From positions 38,185 through 102,184 of IMG/VR virus record IMGVR_UViG_3300047553_000733: a DNA stretch of 64,000 nt; one strand, 5' to 3'. The stretch comes from a virus. Positions 16,552-64,000 of this stretch are shown one piece after another. The stretch's first letter is position 1. Each line of letters opens with the position of its first letter. The position numbers and the translations under genes are program-made. A model generated the notes under the pieces. The model made no database searches and had not been told where the DNA came from. It was given only the letters and a program-made list of their open reading frames with translations.

Positions 16552-16867
16552 ATTCTGAACCGATTACAGGCTTGTTGCGATAGTCACTGCCTACAATCAT
16601 TATGTCTGGTCTATATTGTTTTACTAGTTGTGTTAGTTCTACATCACTGTCGAACACAACCACTTCATCAACCCAGCGTAAACTTTCTAATAGTTTTTTT
16701 CTGTTTTGTTGTGGATTTAGTGGTCTGTCCGCACCTTTTAACTTTGCAACCCTGTCATCAGAGTCGATACCTACAAGCAAAAAAGTACCTAAACTTGCCG
16801 CGTGCTGCAACAAGTTCAGGTGACTTGGATGTAAAACGTCAAAAGTGCCGTTTACAAATATTTTCAT
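16460..16867 (-). CDS. Heptose-1-phosphate adenylyltransferase-like protein (HldE C-domain-like)
   Basis: This 135-aa cytidylyltransferase-fold enzyme has NGTFDVLHPSHLNLL, with the HxxH nucleotide-binding pair at His13/His16, plus ADRPLNPQQNR and a late YSRTTTDST in place of the usual ISTT. This fits the RfaE2/HldE nucleotidyltransferase domain, which joins ADP to heptose 1-phosphate; glycerol-3-phosphate cytidylyltransferase is a related but less fitting option given the neighbours. It precedes the PfkB kinase gene with a 92-nt overlap and follows the carbamoyltransferase gene with 4 nt overlap. Confidence 0.85.
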   Translation of the reverse strand: MKIFVNGTFDVLHPSHLNLLQHAASLGTFLLVGIDSDDRVAKLKGADRPLNPQQNRKKLLESLRWVDEVVVFDSDVELTQLVKQYRPDIMIVGSDYRNKPVIGSEYAKRLEFYSRTTTDSTTQILEHFINRRRLR

Positions 16868-18645
16868 TGGTTTGCTATTGTTACCAGTTTACCATACTCT
16901 GGTAGATAAAGATATTCAATTTCGCTTTGTTGCAGTGTCCACAGTGCGTCTTCCAATGTTTCTACCAGCGGCTCTCCACCAAGGTTAAAGCTAGTATTGA
17001 ATATAATTGGTATTCCAGTTTGCTTTTTGAACTCACTAATTAGTGCGTAATAATGAGGATTCTCATTAGTGTTAACTGTCTGAATACGACAAGTTCCATC
17101 TACATGTATAATGCTAGGAATCTTATCCTCAACTCCAGGTTGGCAGTTAACCGCATACATCATATGCGGGCTTGAGTTCATGCCGCGTAAATCAAACCAC
17201 TGGTGCACATCTTCTTCTAAAATGCTACCTGCAAAAGGTCTAAAATATTCACGGTGCTTGATGCGGTTTACGTAATCTTTTCCGTCCACAAAAGTAGGGT
17301 CAAACATTAGTGAGCGGTTGCCCAGTGCTCTGGGGCCGTTTTCACTGCGACCTTGAAACATTGCAACAATATTCTTTTTACGCATTAGTTCTACAACTTT
17401 TGCATTATCGCAAGTTTCTACGGTACCACCATACTGCTCAGCAATAGCCTCTATTTGATCAGTATAATCATACTTTGGACCTAAGTAGATTTCTCGTGGA
17501 TGTGTTTCTGTGGCCTGTGTAAGTTGATGATAACCCCACAGTGCAACACCAATTGCTGTGCCGCCATCATTGCTAACTGGCTCAACATACAGCTCAACGC
17601 CTTCATCACGCAGTGTTTTTAAGTAGTAGTAGTTTGCAACACAGTTTAGGGCATATCCGCCACTAAGTACTACTTGTTTTTTACCTGTTAATTCTACTGC
17701 ACTCTTAATTAGCTGTAGTACCTGTGCTTGAGTTTGTGTTTGACAAGTATATGCTAAATCTCGCCTATTTTGACACTTGGTAACATCCTGATCTGTAATA
17801 GTTTGTAGTTCGGAGTACATTGATGCATTAACTATTGCACCGTTAGGATATCTAGGTATAATAACATTTCTGTCACTGATTGGGGCTACTTGTGAATCTA
17901 TAAATAGCTTGGGTATTTGTTCGTTTGATTTGCCATATGGAAATAATCCCATAGTTTTTCCAGCTTCAATAGAACTAAACCCACAATATTCTGTTACTGC
18001 TTCATATACTTTAGTAATACCAGCATTTCCACTTATAAACTCTATATGTGTGCCTTGCTCACCAAATTTTTCACTATTTTCGCTGTGGTTGTAGTGACCA
18101 ACAATTGGCTCTTTGCAACCCAAGTGTTTGTAAATAGTTTTAAAGTTTGCTGGATAGCTACAATCAAATACTGTTTCTGTTTCCCACAATATAACCTGTT
18201 GATTATCAAACATAGCTGGATACATCGTACCAGCTCCGTCAACAATAACTGCTACAGCATCGTTAAATCCACTGCGATAAAATGCAATTGCTGCATGAAT
18301 TTTATGGTGTGAATGGCTAAGATCAATTACTTGTGGATGATTTCGTAAGTCTGCTTTACGATCTATAAATCCCATTTTTCTGGCTAAACCAGTATAAACG
18401 TCGTCGCCAGTATAGTCTACTTTGCCTGCGGTATCATGCAGTGATTGTGTGTGCGATACAAATATAAAATCAAGCTTATCAGTATACTCTTTTACCTTCA
18501 TCATGGTGGCATAGGGACCACCATCATATTTTTGACGACTTAATCGTTCTTCTTCTAAGCTAAAAACAATTTTTCCGTCTTTTAATAGACAGGCACCAGC
18601 ATTGTGCCCTCTAGCAATTCCTAAAATATATCCTGTTTTATTCAT
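16864..18645 (-). CDS. NodU/CmcH-family carbamoyltransferase
   Basis: This 593-aa protein matches the two-part family: an ASKHA-like Kae1-type domain (YILGIARGHNAGACLL start, SHSHHKIHAA metal site, VIVDGAGT) and a C-terminal YrdC-like part with GRSENGPRALGNRSL, RPFAGSILEE and the end FNTSFNLGGEPLV. The family transfers carbamoyl from carbamoyl phosphate, via carbamoyl-AMP, to a hydroxyl of a sugar or antibiotic. Length is typical (~570-600). It lies between a GT9-like gene and heptose genes, so the natural substrate is probably a surface or nucleotide sugar; nucleobase modification is the alternative raised for phage members. Confidence 0.88.
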   Translation of the reverse strand: MNKTGYILGIARGHNAGACLLKDGKIVFSLEEERLSRQKYDGGPYATMMKVKEYTDKLDFIFVSHTQSLHDTAGKVDYTGDDVYTGLARKMGFIDRKADLRNHPQVIDLSHSHHKIHAAIAFYRSGFNDAVAVIVDGAGTMYPAMFDNQQVILWETETVFDCSYPANFKTIYKHLGCKEPIVGHYNHSENSEKFGEQGTHIEFISGNAGITKVYEAVTEYCGFSSIEAGKTMGLFPYGKSNEQIPKLFIDSQVAPISDRNVIIPRYPNGAIVNASMYSELQTITDQDVTKCQNRRDLAYTCQTQTQAQVLQLIKSAVELTGKKQVVLSGGYALNCVANYYYLKTLRDEGVELYVEPVSNDGGTAIGVALWGYHQLTQATETHPREIYLGPKYDYTDQIEAIAEQYGGTVETCDNAKVVELMRKKNIVAMFQGRSENGPRALGNRSLMFDPTFVDGKDYVNRIKHREYFRPFAGSILEEDVHQWFDLRGMNSSPHMMYAVNCQPGVEDKIPSIIHVDGTCRIQTVNTNENPHYYALISEFKKQTGIPIIFNTSFNLGGEPLVETLEDALWTLQQSEIEYLYLPEYGKLVTIANQ

Positions 18646-29151: not shown

Positions 29152-29382
29152 TTACCCCAGTGCTATTGCCATTACAATCGCCTTTTCTGTAGCAATTGTA
29201 TTGATTAGTGAATCAATACCACCACCACCAGCTGTAATGTTATTAACGGTGCCGTCATGCTTTTTATAGTATAGCGCACCGTCTTTATAGTTAATTGCTA
29301 GTTCGCCAAACTCTAAGTCTTGTGGTTGAGGGACCTTGCCAGCCACATCACTACGTTTTAATTTAAGTACTGGTTCTGCCAT
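29152..29382 (-). CDS. Short fibre/HOC-like N-terminal-motif protein
   Basis: This 76-aa protein consists of the motif LKRSDVAGKVPQPQDLEFGE followed by LAINYKDGALYYKKHDG, the classic start of many phage tail fibre and head-fibre proteins, and then a short helix. The usual downstream shaft is absent, so it is a stand-alone attachment domain or a trimming of a longer fibre. It precedes the next small gene by 3 nt. It may anchor other fibre chains in trans. Confidence 0.6.
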   Translation of the reverse strand: MAEPVLKLKRSDVAGKVPQPQDLEFGELAINYKDGALYYKKHDGTVNNITAGGGGIDSLINTIATEKAIVMAIALG

Positions 29383-29397
29383 AAGGCCCTCCTAATA

Positions 29398-30729
29398 TTA
29401 ATAAGTGCCACAGTCTACTTGGGTTAGCTCAACACTACCATTTGTAACTGTAAATTGTGTAGCTACAAAACTAGCTAGGCCTTTAATTAGTGTGGTGGCT
29501 GTTGGAATTACTGTTTGTGTTACCGCAGTAACCAAACCCTTGCCATTAACTGTTAGGGTAGGTACTGTTATGCTATCACCAAAACTGCCAACATTGCTGT
29601 TTACAGTTGCCAGTGTAATTGCTGCGCTAACATTTGCACTACCATCAACTGCTGTTAGTGTTGCTGTTGCATCACCAGTTAAGCTTAAGTTACGGGCTGT
29701 TTGCCACTTTGTAGCAGTATCTGCATTTCCACGCAAGTTACCAAATACTTGTGCAACTGTTAGGTCTTTGTTCATTGACCAACGATCATCACCACTGTTA
29801 TAGGTAAAAGTAGCTGGCGTTGCTGGTCCCATAATTGTCAAACCACCACCATCAGCCATTGCTGCACTAGTAGCGTCCTTGGCCAGCTCAATATTCTTAT
29901 CACCAATCGCAACTGTTGTACTATTTACAGTGGTTACTGTGCCAAGTACTGTTAGGTTACCTGTGATACTAGCATTACCATCAATATTGATGTTAGCTGC
30001 TGTAATGTCATTACTGTACAGTGCACCGTTAACAGTTACGTCGTTAAATGTAACGTTGCTGGTTGGTGCAAGTGCTTGTGGTAAGTTAATTGTAATTGTG
30101 TTGTTAGTTACTGTGGTTAGTACGCCTACGCCACCAGCGACTGTTAGTGTATCTGTTAATAAACTGACTGTATCAGTACCAGTATTACCTGCTACACTTA
30201 AATTTGTTGCAACGTTTACTGTGCCAGCAGCTGTTAATCTACCTTTAGCATCCACAGTAAAAGTAGGAATTTCTGTTGCGCTGCCGTAATTGCCGGCCGT
30301 TACTCCACTGTTGGCCAAAGTTAATGCTGCGCTTACATTCTGACTACCATCTACACTGCTCAGAGTAGCTGTAGCATCGCCAGTTAACTGCAAATTTCGT
30401 GGATTGAGCCACTTTGTAGCAGTATCGGCATTGCCGATTAGTGCAGCAGTAATATTGCGTGCTGTAAAATCGCCGTTTGTATCACGCTTTACTAGTGTGC
30501 CGACTACATTTAAATTAGTGGCAGCATCTACCATATCTGTGTAACGCTTACCACCAATAATAATGTGATTTACTGCGTTACCAGCAGTTTCAGTACCCAT
30601 ACCAATGTATAGTCTGTCACCGCCATTCGAACCATTATCGGAGAGAGCACTATAAGCTAGTTCACCTGCAGCTAATACCGCTGGATTACCGCTTAACTCA
30701 CTGCGTTTAATTCTTAATAATGAACCCAT
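29398..30729 (-). CDS. Tail fibre protein with repeated shaft modules
   Basis: This 443-aa protein starts with the fibre head motif [20 protein letters not shown] and has two copies of a GNADTATKW...[28 protein letters not shown] module (near 105-140 and 340-375), typical of trimeric T4 gp34/gp37-like and other tail-fibre shafts. The middle contains [18 protein letters not shown] strands as in the giant fibre. The C-terminus has no recognisable chaperone domain. It lies between small fibre genes and follows a 12-nt gap. Confidence 0.75.
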
Positions 30730-58183: not shown

Positions 58184-59485
58184 CTATACAACATAGGTGT
58201 AAAGGGCGTATCGCAACGCATCAGCCATGTGCGAATAATCGTCGTGTTTTGGTCGTTCACGCTGCAGACCTTCACGATCATCCCAGCGATACTGGTCCAA
58301 CATAGCTAGCACATGCTTGCAGTCACTGTGTATAACTAGTCTGCCTTGCTGGATTAACGTTTGCAGGTAGGCAATACCGGGCAGCACATCTTTTTTAGCT
58401 TTTGTTGTTGCTAAATCATACTGGTAGGCAAGGTCGCTTGAAAACTGTGCGGCTGCCGAGTCAATAAATATGGTCTCTACACCCCACTCTTGACACATCG
58501 CCTGAAAATCTTTGGCGTGCTCGGCGGTGGTCCGCTCCGACTCCTGATAGTCACGAACAACGTAGAACTTGTCACTCTCAAAGTGGTAGCCAACTACCAC
58601 AAAAGCAGTATGATCGCGATATCCAGGGTCACAACCAGCAATAAACTCGCAACGACGATGCTCCAACACATCACTGGGTAGCTCCTCAACGACATTATCC
58701 TCGCGCAGTTCGTAGATTTGACCAGCATAGCTGGTAAAGCTAGCCAAGTACTCTTGCTCAAACTCTGCTTTTGACATACTGCGGCGCGCTTCCTGCACGT
58801 CCGACTCGGCCATCCTGGTATTTTCACTGTAGTCCGCCTGTAGCGATACCCACTCCGGAAACGCTTCGTCAAAGCCGCGATTCCAAAATTGACTAAACCA
58901 GTTCAACTTACCGCGAGGTGTACTAATAAAGATAGCTTTTGCAGTGGGCTTGTCCAGGGTAGGACGTAGTGCTACATTGAAAGCAGCCTCGCCTCCCTCT
59001 CCAAGAGCGGCCTCGTCGAATATGATGAGATCATAGCTGCGTCCAACAGTACTGTCAACGGTACTGAGCGAACCCATGCGTATAGTGCTGCCGTTAGATA
59101 ATTCAATAATCTTGTCTTTAAGGTTGTCACGCGTAACTTCCAAGTCAAAGTGTTTTATTAACCGTCTTTGCAGTTCAAATGAAATTGAACTCAAGTTGTA
59201 GTTTGGCGAAATGATAAGCACATTCGAGTTGGGTACAAGTGTTACTAGTTGACCAATCACGTTAGCAATGTAAGTTTTGCCTAGGCGACGGGCAAGTGCG
59301 GCGCAAATAAAACGGTACTTGGGGTCATTAACTGCATTGATTAAGGCAATTTGCGGACGATTAATGGTGTCGTAAATGCCTAAGAGTTTTAAGTAGTTGT
59401 CGATCGGCAGTTTGATAAATCGTTTGTCACTGGGAAAGTCTACTATGTGGTCGCGCTCAACATCCGGTCTTGAAATGGTTAACAT
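58184..59485 (-). CDS. terL: Terminase large subunit
   Basis: This 433-aa protein has a packaging ATPase domain with a Walker A-like ALARRLGKT (residues 63-71), a Walker B LIIFDEAAL, and a coupling-type STPRGKLNW, followed by an RNase H-like nuclease with acidic positions in AGCDPGYRDHTAFVVV, IFIDSAAAQFSSD and DDYSHMADALRYALY. It translocates and cuts DNA concatemers. The ATG is 1 base overlapped with the small subunit stop at 59485. Length is typical of HK97-like systems. Confidence 0.95.
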   Translation of the reverse strand: MLTISRPDVERDHIVDFPSDKRFIKLPIDNYLKLLGIYDTINRPQIALINAVNDPKYRFICAALARRLGKTYIANVIGQLVTLVPNSNVLIISPNYNLSSISFELQRRLIKHFDLEVTRDNLKDKIIELSNGSTIRMGSLSTVDSTVGRSYDLIIFDEAALGEGGEAAFNVALRPTLDKPTAKAIFISTPRGKLNWFSQFWNRGFDEAFPEWVSLQADYSENTRMAESDVQEARRSMSKAEFEQEYLASFTSYAGQIYELREDNVVEELPSDVLEHRRCEFIAGCDPGYRDHTAFVVVGYHFESDKFYVVRDYQESERTTAEHAKDFQAMCQEWGVETIFIDSAAAQFSSDLAYQYDLATTKAKKDVLPGIAYLQTLIQQGRLVIHSDCKHVLAMLDQYRWDDREGLQRERPKHDDYSHMADALRYALYTYVV

Positions 59486-61354: not shown

Positions 61355-61438
61355 CTGTTGCTTTTTTGCAACAGGGCGCCATTTTACTATAGTAAAATGG
61401 GAGGTGTCAATAGGGATAAACCCCTATGTTGTATTTTA
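61355..61438. repeat. Three-copy palindrome/promoter element, copy A
   Basis: It contains a 7-bp hairpin (61355-61361/61368-61374, T6 loop), then GGCGCC next to a perfect 22-bp palindrome (61379-61400, arms of 11), then GTGTCAATAGGG and CCCCTATGTTGTATTTTA. On the minus strand TTGACA (61405-61410) is 18 nt from TAAAAT (61381-61386) inside the palindrome. Copies B and C (61916-62012 and 62784-62872) share the frame. Confidence 0.85.
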
Positions 61439-61447
61439 GCACAAGCT

Positions 61448-61915: not shown

Positions 61916-62012
61916 AATAACCCCACAATCTGTGGGGTTATTGGCGCCAAAATTATAACATATAATTTTGGCCCGTGTCAATAGGTACTTTCCCCTATGT
62001 TGTATTTTTGCA
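61916..62012. repeat. Three-copy palindrome/promoter element, copy B
   Basis: It has a 12-bp hairpin (61916-61927/61931-61942, ATC loop), GGCGCC, an 11-bp inverted repeat with 3-nt spacer (61947-61957/61961-61971), GTGTCAATAGG and CCCCTATGTTGTATTTTTGCA. On the minus strand TTGACA (61976-61981) is 18 nt from TATAAT (61952-61957). The palindrome arms differ in sequence from copies A and C yet stay complementary. Confidence 0.85.
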
Positions 62013-62195: not shown

Positions 62196-62669
62196 ATGAT
62201 TTCAAGGATTGCAATATATGACATGGATGGCACAATCGTTTGTTCTCTGCATCGGTATCGCACAATTGCTGATGCCAATGGTGAGCGTATTGACCTCAAT
62301 TATTGGCGCGAAAATGAATATCGCGCGGGTTCTGATTCTCTGCTACCCCTTGCCGAAAATTACAAGCGAGACTTGGCAGATGCTAGCTGTTTTGTCGTTA
62401 TCGCTACTGCCCGCGTTATGCGTGCCCCTGATTATGCATTTGTTACTGAGAAACTAGGCGATCCTGATTATATTATTTCCCGTCCTGATGGTGAAACTAT
62501 TTCAGGCGGTACATTAAAAATTAATGGTTTGCGTAAGGTTTTCGAGATGTTGCCTAATGTAAATCGTGATAATTGCGTGTTTTACGAAGATAATGTAAGC
62601 TATCTAAAATCAGTTTGCGATTATTTCAATATTCGCGGTGTTTATATTCCAAGCAAACAGGGGCATTAA
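62196..62669 (+). CDS. HAD-superfamily phosphatase
   Basis: This 157-aa protein has the HAD motifs: IYDMDGT (nucleophile and acid Asp, residues 8 and 10), a Thr-containing strand VVIATARV, and the acidic loop YEDNVSYL near residue 128. The cap is small. It is close in size and order to the 3'-phosphatase half of polynucleotide kinase and to other phage HAD phosphatases; no kinase domain is present. The substrate is unknown, with end-repair or nucleotide cleanup possible given the phage DNA genes nearby. Confidence 0.75.
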   Translation: MISRIAIYDMDGTIVCSLHRYRTIADANGERIDLNYWRENEYRAGSDSLLPLAENYKRDLADASCFVVIATARVMRAPDYAFVTEKLGDPDYIISRPDGETISGGTLKINGLRKVFEMLPNVNRDNCVFYEDNVSYLKSVCDYFNIRGVYIPSKQGH

Positions 62670-62671
62670 TT

Positions 62672-62761
62672 ATGACTGAGGTTATTATGTGGTTTTTGGG
62701 TTTTATTATATTTTTTGCGGTTTACTTTATATTGGAATCGTGGTATATAAGCCGCGACTAA
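62672..62761 (+). CDS. 29-aa single-span membrane miniprotein
   Basis: ATG 62672 to TAA 62759-62761 encodes 29 aa, nearly all one hydrophobic span (MWFLGFIIFFAVYFIL) with a charged end (ESWYISRD). It starts 2 nt after the HAD stop, so coupled translation is plausible. There is no independent ribosome site, so a chance frame is possible. The parS sequence begins immediately after its stop. Confidence 0.5.
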   Translation: MTEVIMWFLGFIIFFAVYFILESWYISRD

Positions 62762-62777
62762 TGTTTCACGTGAAACA
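62762..62777. promoter_or_regulatory. Perfect bacterial parS (ParB-binding) sequence
   Basis: The 16-bp palindrome TGTTTCACGTGAAACA is the exact consensus of the chromosomal parS centromere site bound by ParB/Spo0J across most bacteria. It lies in the short gap after the 29-aa gene and just before copy C of the palindrome element. No second perfect copy and no ParA/ParB gene was noticed in the window. Random occurrence of a given 16-mer in 64 kb is roughly 1 in 67,000. Confidence 0.9.
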
Positions 62778-62783
62778 AGCCCA

Positions 62784-62872
62784 CTGTTGTTTTAAAACAA
62801 CAGGGGCGCCAATTATACTAGTATAATTGGGCGCGTGTCAATAGGTGTTTTCCCCTATGTTGTATTTTTGCA
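62784..62872. repeat. Three-copy palindrome/promoter element, copy C
   Basis: It has a perfect 20-bp palindrome (62784-62803), GGCGCC, a perfect 22-bp palindrome (62809-62830, arms of 11), GTGTCAATAGG and CCCCTATGTTGTATTTTTGCA. On the minus strand TTGACA (62836-62841) is 18 nt from TATAAT (62812-62817). It follows the parS site by 6 nt. Confidence 0.85.
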
Positions 62873-62878
62873 CTGGGC

Positions 62879-62906
62879 TTGTCATGGTCGATTTTTTGTG
62901 TATAAT
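62879..62906 (+). promoter_or_regulatory. sigma70-like promoter for the exonuclease gene
   Basis: TTGTCA (62879-62884) and TATAAT (62901-62906) are 16 nt apart; the spacer TGGTCGATTTTTTGTG is shared with the promoter at 61448-61475. The gene's ATG (62938) follows ~25 nt after initiation, without a strong Shine-Dalgarno. Confidence 0.78.
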
Positions 62907-62937: not shown

Positions 62938-63636
62938 ATGTCACGCAAACAATATTTTGCCATTCTCGATACTGAAACAACCATTAATGATACTGTTGCA
63001 GATTTTGCAATTGTTATTTGTGATCGCAATGGTAATATTTATAACCAATGCGCGGTTTTGGTTCACGGGCATTATGATGCAATGGAATTATTCCACGATA
63101 AACAATCTAATGACATTTGGGGTTATGCTGGTTTGCAAAAACGCAAAGCGCAATATTCTGCTATGCTAGAATCTGGCGTCCGTATGCTTGCTTCAGTTAA
63201 TGCAATTAATAAATGGATTAATCAAGCCATTGGCAAATATAATCCTACACTTACTGCATATAATCTCGCGTTCGATGTTGCAAAATGTGCCAATACTGGT
63301 ATTGATTTGACTGGTTTTAATAATCGTTTTTGTTTGTGGCAAGCCTCTGTAGGTAATATTTGCAATACTAAAAAGTATCGTCAATTTGCCCTCGATAATC
63401 ACCTATTTAATAATGTGAGCAAGCATGGCAATATGACATTCAAAACCAATGCCGAAACTGTTTGCGGGTTTATTAATAATAATCTTATTGATGAGCCGCA
63501 TACTGCCCTTGAAGATGCGCGAGATTTTGAATTGCCGATTTTGACTAATATTATCAAAAAACGCGATTGGCAATCTAAGATTATGGCTTATGACTGGCAA
63601 AAATTTCAGGTAAAAAATCATTATGTCGCACGTTAA
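62938..63636 (+). CDS. DEDDh 3'-5' exonuclease (DnaQ-like)
   Basis: This 232-aa protein has ExoI ILDTETT, ExoII TAYNLAFD and ExoIII EPHTALEDARDFE (His and Asp 5 apart), the DEDDh pattern of DnaQ/epsilon-type proofreading and RNase T-like exonucleases. It is a stand-alone protein, so it may proofread, trim DNA or RNA ends, or degrade host nucleic acids. The middle holds several Cys (KCANTG, FCLWQ, ICNTKK, VCGF). The small ORF after it overlaps its end by 14 nt. Confidence 0.9.
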   Translation: MSRKQYFAILDTETTINDTVADFAIVICDRNGNIYNQCAVLVHGHYDAMELFHDKQSNDIWGYAGLQKRKAQYSAMLESGVRMLASVNAINKWINQAIGKYNPTLTAYNLAFDVAKCANTGIDLTGFNNRFCLWQASVGNICNTKKYRQFALDNHLFNNVSKHGNMTFKTNAETVCGFINNNLIDEPHTALEDARDFELPILTNIIKKRDWQSKIMAYDWQKFQVKNHYVAR

Positions 63637-63763
63637 TATTAATCGGATTATGTGGATTATTCTCTTGCTATTGTTTTTTTACAACGGCAAGAGATATGAT
63701 ATTGACGATCATTATGAAATGCCGTATAATATCCATATTACGGCAGATTTAATTGTTAGGTGA
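63623..63763 (+). CDS. 46-aa membrane-anchored miniprotein
   Basis: ATG 63623 to TGA 63761-63763 encodes 46 aa with a hydrophobic span (IMWIILLLLFFYN, residues ~9-21) and an acidic/basic C-terminus. It overlaps the exonuclease by 14 nt. The downstream half contains a promoter for the next gene, so codons at 34-44 double as promoter bases. No clear ribosome site is seen, so confidence is modest. Confidence 0.5.
   Translation: MSHVNINRIMWIILLLLFFYNGKRYDIDDHYEMPYNIHITADLIVR
63702..63730 (+). promoter_or_regulatory. sigma70-like promoter inside the 46-aa ORF
   Basis: TTGACG (63702-63707) and TATAAT (63725-63730) are 17 nt apart, placing initiation near 63737, ~32 nt before the PQ-loop gene ATG (63769). 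Confidence 0.75.
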
Positions 63764-63768
63764 TTATC

Positions 63769-64000
63769 ATGGAAATGTTAGGTTGGCTGGGTTCTATATT
63801 ATTGGCATTTTGCGGATTACCGCAAGCCATAGAATCCTACAAAACAAAATCCAGCGATGGATTAACTTGGGGTTTTATTGCAATGTGGTTTATTGGCGAA
63901 ATATTTACATTTATTTATATTTTGCCTAAAATGGATTTGCCCCTAATGTTTAATTACACTGCAAATATTATTTTTCTTTCCATTATTATTTATTTTAAAC
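63769..64000 (+). CDS. PQ-loop (SemiSWEET-like) membrane protein, 3' truncated by window
   Basis: The visible 77 residues contain three hydrophobic helices and the PQ motif: LGWLGSILLAFCGLPQAIES, then KTKSSDGLTWGFIAMWFIGE and a third span. LPQ at the end of helix 1 followed by a KS..GLS/T..F loop is the signature of the PQ-loop/SWEET-like family, in which half-size bacterial members (SemiSWEET) dimerise to move small sugars. The gene runs off the window. The sequence alone does not tell the substrate. Confidence 0.75.
   Translation, partial: MEMLGWLGSILLAFCGLPQAIESYKTKSSDGLTWGFIAMWFIGEIFTFIYILPKMDLPLMFNYTANIIFLSIIIYFK

Follow-up and report, generated by a model that had tools for sequence, protein, structure and literature searches.

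The place and manner in which a bacterial chromosome is held and folded are set by the CTP-bound clamps of ParB together with ParA and SMC. ParB-CTP loads at the centromere site parS, closes and slides (PMC12704722). The same 16-bp parS sequence is found on the chromosome of Bacillus subtilis and on chromosome 1 of both Vibrio cholerae and Burkholderia cenocepacia. Chromosome 1 of V. cholerae has three such 16-bp sites, each a target of its ParB (PMC6238139). Systematic SPR imaging of ParBc1 from B. cenocepacia established that binding survives changes only at positions 1-16 and 5-12 of the palindrome, symmetric changes at 8-9 abolishing it (PMC5450999). Centromere-like sites on phage DNA are known from the partition loci of P1 and mycobacteriophage RedRock, which encode their own ParA and ParB for prophage maintenance, the private site of RedRock being made of repeats of an 8-bp motif (PMC7157519). 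An engineered lambda with parS has also been used as an artificial reporter in Escherichia coli; CFP-ParB loads on the injected phage genome, gathering there within ten minutes of infection, and forms foci (PMC13190303). In T5 the DNA that enters the cell first is a terminal repeat of about 8% of the genome, which bears the pre-early genes (PMC7472727). No natural host-type parS on a phage was found in the published literature searched, which excluded most subscription papers and preprints.

The 16-mer examined here is read as a functional orphan parS that would load the host chromosomal ParB on the early DNA of a T5-like phage devoid of Par proteins, and from sequence comparisons this reading is given a probability of about 0.74. 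The site is identical in sequence to the chromosomal ones and further resembles them in that its variants in phages fall mostly at positions tolerated by ParB (PMC5450999) and in that one to several sites are clustered within a few kilobases. Unlike them, it is located on a lytic-type phage genome without parA or parB in cis, and it adjoins the terminase within early DNA instead of being near a chromosomal origin. It shares with P1 and RedRock a centromere-like site on phage DNA, but it is the universal host sequence and the phage has no Par proteins of its own (PMC7157519). In contrast to lambda-parS it occurs naturally, and it would be served by the ParB of the host itself (PMC13190303).

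The analysis was performed on a stretch of 64,000 nt (the window) of a virus record of 102,184 bases. Chromosomal-type parS follows the consensus TGTTTCACGTGAAACA or TGTTNCACGTGAAACA; an exact TGTTTCACGTGAAACA, a perfect 16-bp palindrome with no strand, occurs at positions 62762-62777, in agreement with the preliminary description of this DNA. From base composition (39.7% GC) the chance expectation for the 16-mer is 2.4e-5 per 64-kb window, that is, about one in 41,000 windows; the site is rare, as previously claimed, although less so than the one in 67,000 given at that time. The window contains no second copy within 3 mismatches, and the site is the sole exact copy in the entire record. In the whole record there was likewise no match to ParB_N (PF02195), HTH_ParB (PF17762) or AAA_31/ParA (PF13614), and a complete ParABS partition system, with parA and parB on the same replicon, is absent from it. 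No Rfam family was found.

The site is intergenic, its first base directly following the TAA of a 29-codon ORF (62672-62761, + strand) for a membrane peptide, which is present but diverged in the relatives L124-L127. It stands beside an intergenic block occurring in three copies (61380-61441, 61951-62012 and 62811-62872), a placement that the preliminary description had recognized. A strong hairpin (62779-62807, no strand; -18 kcal/mol, z -4.4) is situated between parS and the third copy, the promoter block; L124-L127 keep its fold and differ in its sequence. Two sigma70-type promoters were assigned by consensus match only: a perfect TTGACA-18-TATAAT (62812-62841, - strand) that points back to parS, against the genes, and a TTGTCA-16-TATAAT (11/12; 62879-62906, + strand) upstream of a 232-aa gene (phrog_20187; 62938-63636, + strand). 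The latter gene, exonuclease-like by eye only, served as a query for relatives. On the other side of parS lies the gene of a HAD-type phosphatase (62196-62669, + strand), a relative of the pre-early deoxynucleoside-5'-monophosphatase (dmp) of T5-like phages. A PQ-loop (SemiSWEET-like) membrane protein, also of the early region and conserved in the clade, is encoded at 63760-64000 (+ strand) and continues past the window end. Each of the three blocks bears a near-perfect antisense TTGACA-18-TATAAT promoter with a strong hairpin at the block start, and promoters with 11-12 of the 12 consensus bases in 80 clade loci numbered 457 in antisense vs 181 in sense orientation.

By its related terminase and its architecture the phage is T5-like (Demerecviridae-type). 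The terminase large subunit (58184-59485, - strand) is about 50% identical, over 98% of its length, to those of the T5-like Vibrio Demerecviridae, and about 20 tRNA genes occur in the record. As to the host, a weak clue comes from a short contig in the bin of a Methylococcaceae MAG, on which the terminase is 67% identical. In the window, parS is found some 3 kb past the terminase and next to the deoxynucleotidase-like gene, the arrangement of dmp beside the terminase that characterizes a T5-type terminal repeat. The dmp of Vibrio phage phi 3 (KP280063), a T5-like phage of V. cholerae, gave a weak hit to the HAD gene of the window (E 0.001, 33% over 81 aa) and better ones, to E 1e-18, to the homologs of that gene in the relatives. 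A1 and A2 of phi 3 gave no tblastn match in the window or in the relatives. No second copy of a repeat was seen in the record, which is incomplete, classed as linear and ends about 1.2 kb past parS. Since the terminase-side position and the dmp-like neighbor are common to the window and to the first-step-transfer DNA of T5, whose terminal repeat enters first, the window parS is probably located on first-entering DNA, judging by synteny.

Relatives were collected from IMG/VR with the 232-aa gene (84) and with the terminase (542), 80 of each were kept, and the resulting clade sample consisted of 115 non-redundant loci (1.18 Mb). In 14 of these loci parS occurred within 1 mismatch at 21 sites, 13 of them exact, whereas 839 control palindromes of the same composition averaged 0.02 sites in the 115 loci, with a maximum of 3 and none exact. 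All the clade sites are in gaps of a single segment of about 4 kb beside the terminase: 3' of dmp in the window, L124-127, L176, L182, L196, L215, L216, L240, L253 and L272; 5' of dmp in L193, L240, L248, L255, L260 and L266; and after the 232-aa gene in L193, L196, L240 and L253. L240 carries four exact sites, each at a different transcription unit. Scans of the whole records of 50 longer relative contigs detected parS in four, none outside the 4-kb segment, and a reversed-pattern control gave 0 matches in the same contigs.

The site is unevenly distributed: the gene tree shows at least five changes and a close relative, L128, has none, indicating that parS was gained and lost; the site must also be dispensable, as most relatives do without it. 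Among the window and its nearest relatives (L124-L127), 15 of the 16 parS columns are invariant and the sequence varies in membrane peptide, hairpin and promoters alike, so that the conservation test proposed with the preliminary description came out in favor of the site. A constant 16-mer amid diverged flanks is expected of a site read by a sequence-specific protein, but not of an RNA stem. Where relatives lack parS (L129, L133, L144 and others), its slot, some 150-300 bases 5' of the 232-aa gene, holds hairpins that are repeated and have GAATACTCAGG or GAATACTTTTG as their loop.

Cultured T5-like phages carry the site as well. In phi 3 an exact parS (2934) separates the pre-early genes A1 and A2, and TGTTTCACGTGGAACA (1 mismatch) lies beside dmp at 821; both are within its annotated terminal repeat of 7,769 bp and recur at 109190 and 111303. 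In JSF10 both places are kept, and the central CG is altered in each by one and the same change relative to phi 3. In these two phages parS is thus accompanied by dmp, A1 and A2, the last two being undetected in the window clade. Ten other cultured T5-like phages (of Vibrio, Aeromonas, Proteus, Klebsiella and Salmonella), six of which are Vibrio phages, showed no parS within 2 mismatches, and the enterobacterial ones tested differ in this from the window phage.

In a wider comparison, beyond the clade of the window, 286 out of 50,697 phage records contained exact parS, at about 412 sites in all, in comparison with 1 and 0 records for two control palindromes of the same composition, one of them with the same CACGTG centre. 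The carriers include Listeria P100-like, Lactobacillus and Bacillus phages (among the latter B103 and Chedec 11, of B. subtilis), Roseobacter phage DSS3P8, phages of Gordonia, Microbacterium and Arthrobacter, microviruses and inoviruses. In IMG/VR at least 120 stretches contained the exact site vs 11 and 9 for the control palindromes, which were near chance; host contamination may contribute to these counts and is not an issue for cultured phages. ParB_N was above cut-off in none of 24 parS-bearing records tested and was absent at that cut-off from 47 of 50 further parS-bearing IMG/VR contigs, many of which are fragments. No enterobacterial phage appears among the approximately 110 parS-bearing phage records listed; to our knowledge, Enterobacterales hosts have no chromosomal ParABS. 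It seems rather probable, on these comparisons, that many independent phage lineages without ParB, lytic ones included, convergently acquired the canonical parS, often in early or first-injected DNA, so that host ParB would coat the incoming genome and handle it like a host origin.

Several of these phages bear more than one site. The 5.9-kb genome of the filamentous bajarodino virus 6 (PQ006149, Inoviridae; L303) has six exact parS, the first four of which follow a gene immediately or at a short distance. Five exact sites each lie within about 0.9 kb in the viral contigs L017 (2657-3444) and L044 (10535-11462), where ParB_N was not found, and four are present at 29256-30261, in 1 kb of intergenic DNA among small genes, in Bacillus phage vB_BcoS-136 (160 kb, without ParB_N; L298).

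The spectrum of variants agrees in most part with the known tolerance of ParB. Thirty-three viral sites differ from parS by one mismatch, among them related copies that are not fully independent; the change is at positions 1/16 in 8, at 5/12 in 16 (all T to C) and at 8/9 in 9, and never at positions 2, 3, 4, 6 or 7 (0/33). Hence 24 of the 33 are changed where ParB tolerates it. The 8/9 class is not accounted for by the SPR study, whose palindromic probes had symmetric changes only (PMC5450999). To this class belongs the variant with a CACATG centre, TGTTTCACATGAAACA, common in the clade and in JSF10 (L125, L126, L127, L176, L253, L272 and L295, the last being JSF10). Its orientation relative to the genes is constant in the clade and JSF10, which is unexplained for a symmetric ParB dimer. 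Restriction avoidance of CACGTG was considered as the origin of this variant and found unsupported, as JSF10 still has 5 CACGTG sites; phi 3 has 10 (7 with the repeat counted once).

Other explanations of the site concern either a different use of ParB or no ParB at all. In the former group, parS could be an operator from which host ParB spreads over early promoters, especially the antisense promoter 35 bp away, repressing or timing them. In keeping with it, transcription from a near-perfect antisense TTGACA-18-TATAAT promoter would reach 22 of 27 sites (with some overlap between loci) 33-68 bp past the -10, several transcription units of a single phage (L240) each have parS, and ParB of Pseudomonas aeruginosa at an inserted parS lowered the expression of adjacent genes (PMC7022226). 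However, the antisense promoter and the hairpin are present in blocks with and without parS, the context of the phi 3 sites differs, and the orphan parS of unrelated phages have other neighboring genes than in the T5-like clade, so that this role is considered possible but unlikely. Replicated phage genomes might alternatively act as a decoy that draws ParB from the host origin and disturbs host segregation. The doubling of the repeat in each phi 3 genome and the fitted number of ParB on the V. cholerae chromosome, only about 50 (PMC6238139), would suit such a titration, but one or two sites per repeat are few and the effect would come late. Early destruction of the host chromosome is established for infection by T5. 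If T5-like phages in general, this clade included, behave alike, titration would be pointless, and this explanation is regarded as improbable.

Among the explanations without ParB, the resemblance to parS could be a coincidence in an RNA hairpin that stabilizes 3' ends or forms part of a terminator. The sequence is indeed palindromic and a stop codon often directly precedes it (in the window, L124 and phi 3 site 1; an adjacent stop triplet was found at 25 of 146 IMG/VR sites). Nevertheless, its RNA fold is weak (-4.7 kcal/mol, z -1.3), the window site has no T-run and only 20 of the 146 sites have one beside them, a palindrome with the same loop and composition is not enriched, and the sites of L193 and L196 are located beyond a terminator-like hairpin. 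Variants at position 5 break the stem yet fit the tolerance of ParB, and the stem of parS is constant while the true hairpin beside it varies freely. The terminator or RNA-hairpin reading was rejected on the weak fold, the missing T-run and the constant stem amid diverged flanks, and is held to be very improbable, in line with the earlier remark that the site is not simply a terminator. Lastly, the 16-mer could be bound by a phage-encoded protein unrelated to ParB, or be a product of chance or assembly. Most genes of the phage have no assigned function, leaving room for such a protein, but the occurrence of a sequence identical to the bacterial parS in phages that infect many groups of hosts, the tolerance spectrum and the matched-control counts make this the least credible of all.

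The comparison with relatives and other phages strongly favors a parS that would recruit host ParB, as proposed in the preliminary description, with two corrections: the "phage arm" is likely the terminal-repeat or first-injected region of a T5-like phage, and the site that stands alone in the window has up to four or five counterparts in relatives. According to the orphan parS reading, host ParB-CTP would load at the phage site, close into a clamp and slide along the early region for several kilobases. The incoming DNA would thereby be coated with protein as the host replication origin normally is, and ParB with its partners ParA and SMC could bind, position or condense it as early as the first minutes of infection. 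Tethering or condensation via ParA or SMC is the most likely use of the site, followed by control of early promoters and, in third place, titration. We infer ParB binding and spreading at the phage parS, its terminal-repeat location in the present phage and the benefit to the phage.

If virulent phages do carry orphan parS, the host segregation machinery would be used from the first minutes of infection without any part of it being encoded by the phage, and the convergent occurrence of the site would constitute a general and so far undescribed phage-host interface. ParB would gain a role in phage infection, and a natural system would become available for watching its loading on injected DNA. 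A single-line search of a genome, for the exact 16-mer in the absence of parB, would then indicate a host dependence that phage annotation apparently does not score. The orphan parS reading also accounts for a class of palindromes left blank by annotation. Elsewhere in the window, a Nol-like carbamoyltransferase (phrog_1601; 16864-18645, - strand) is encoded, probably a moron gene for DNA or sugar modification.
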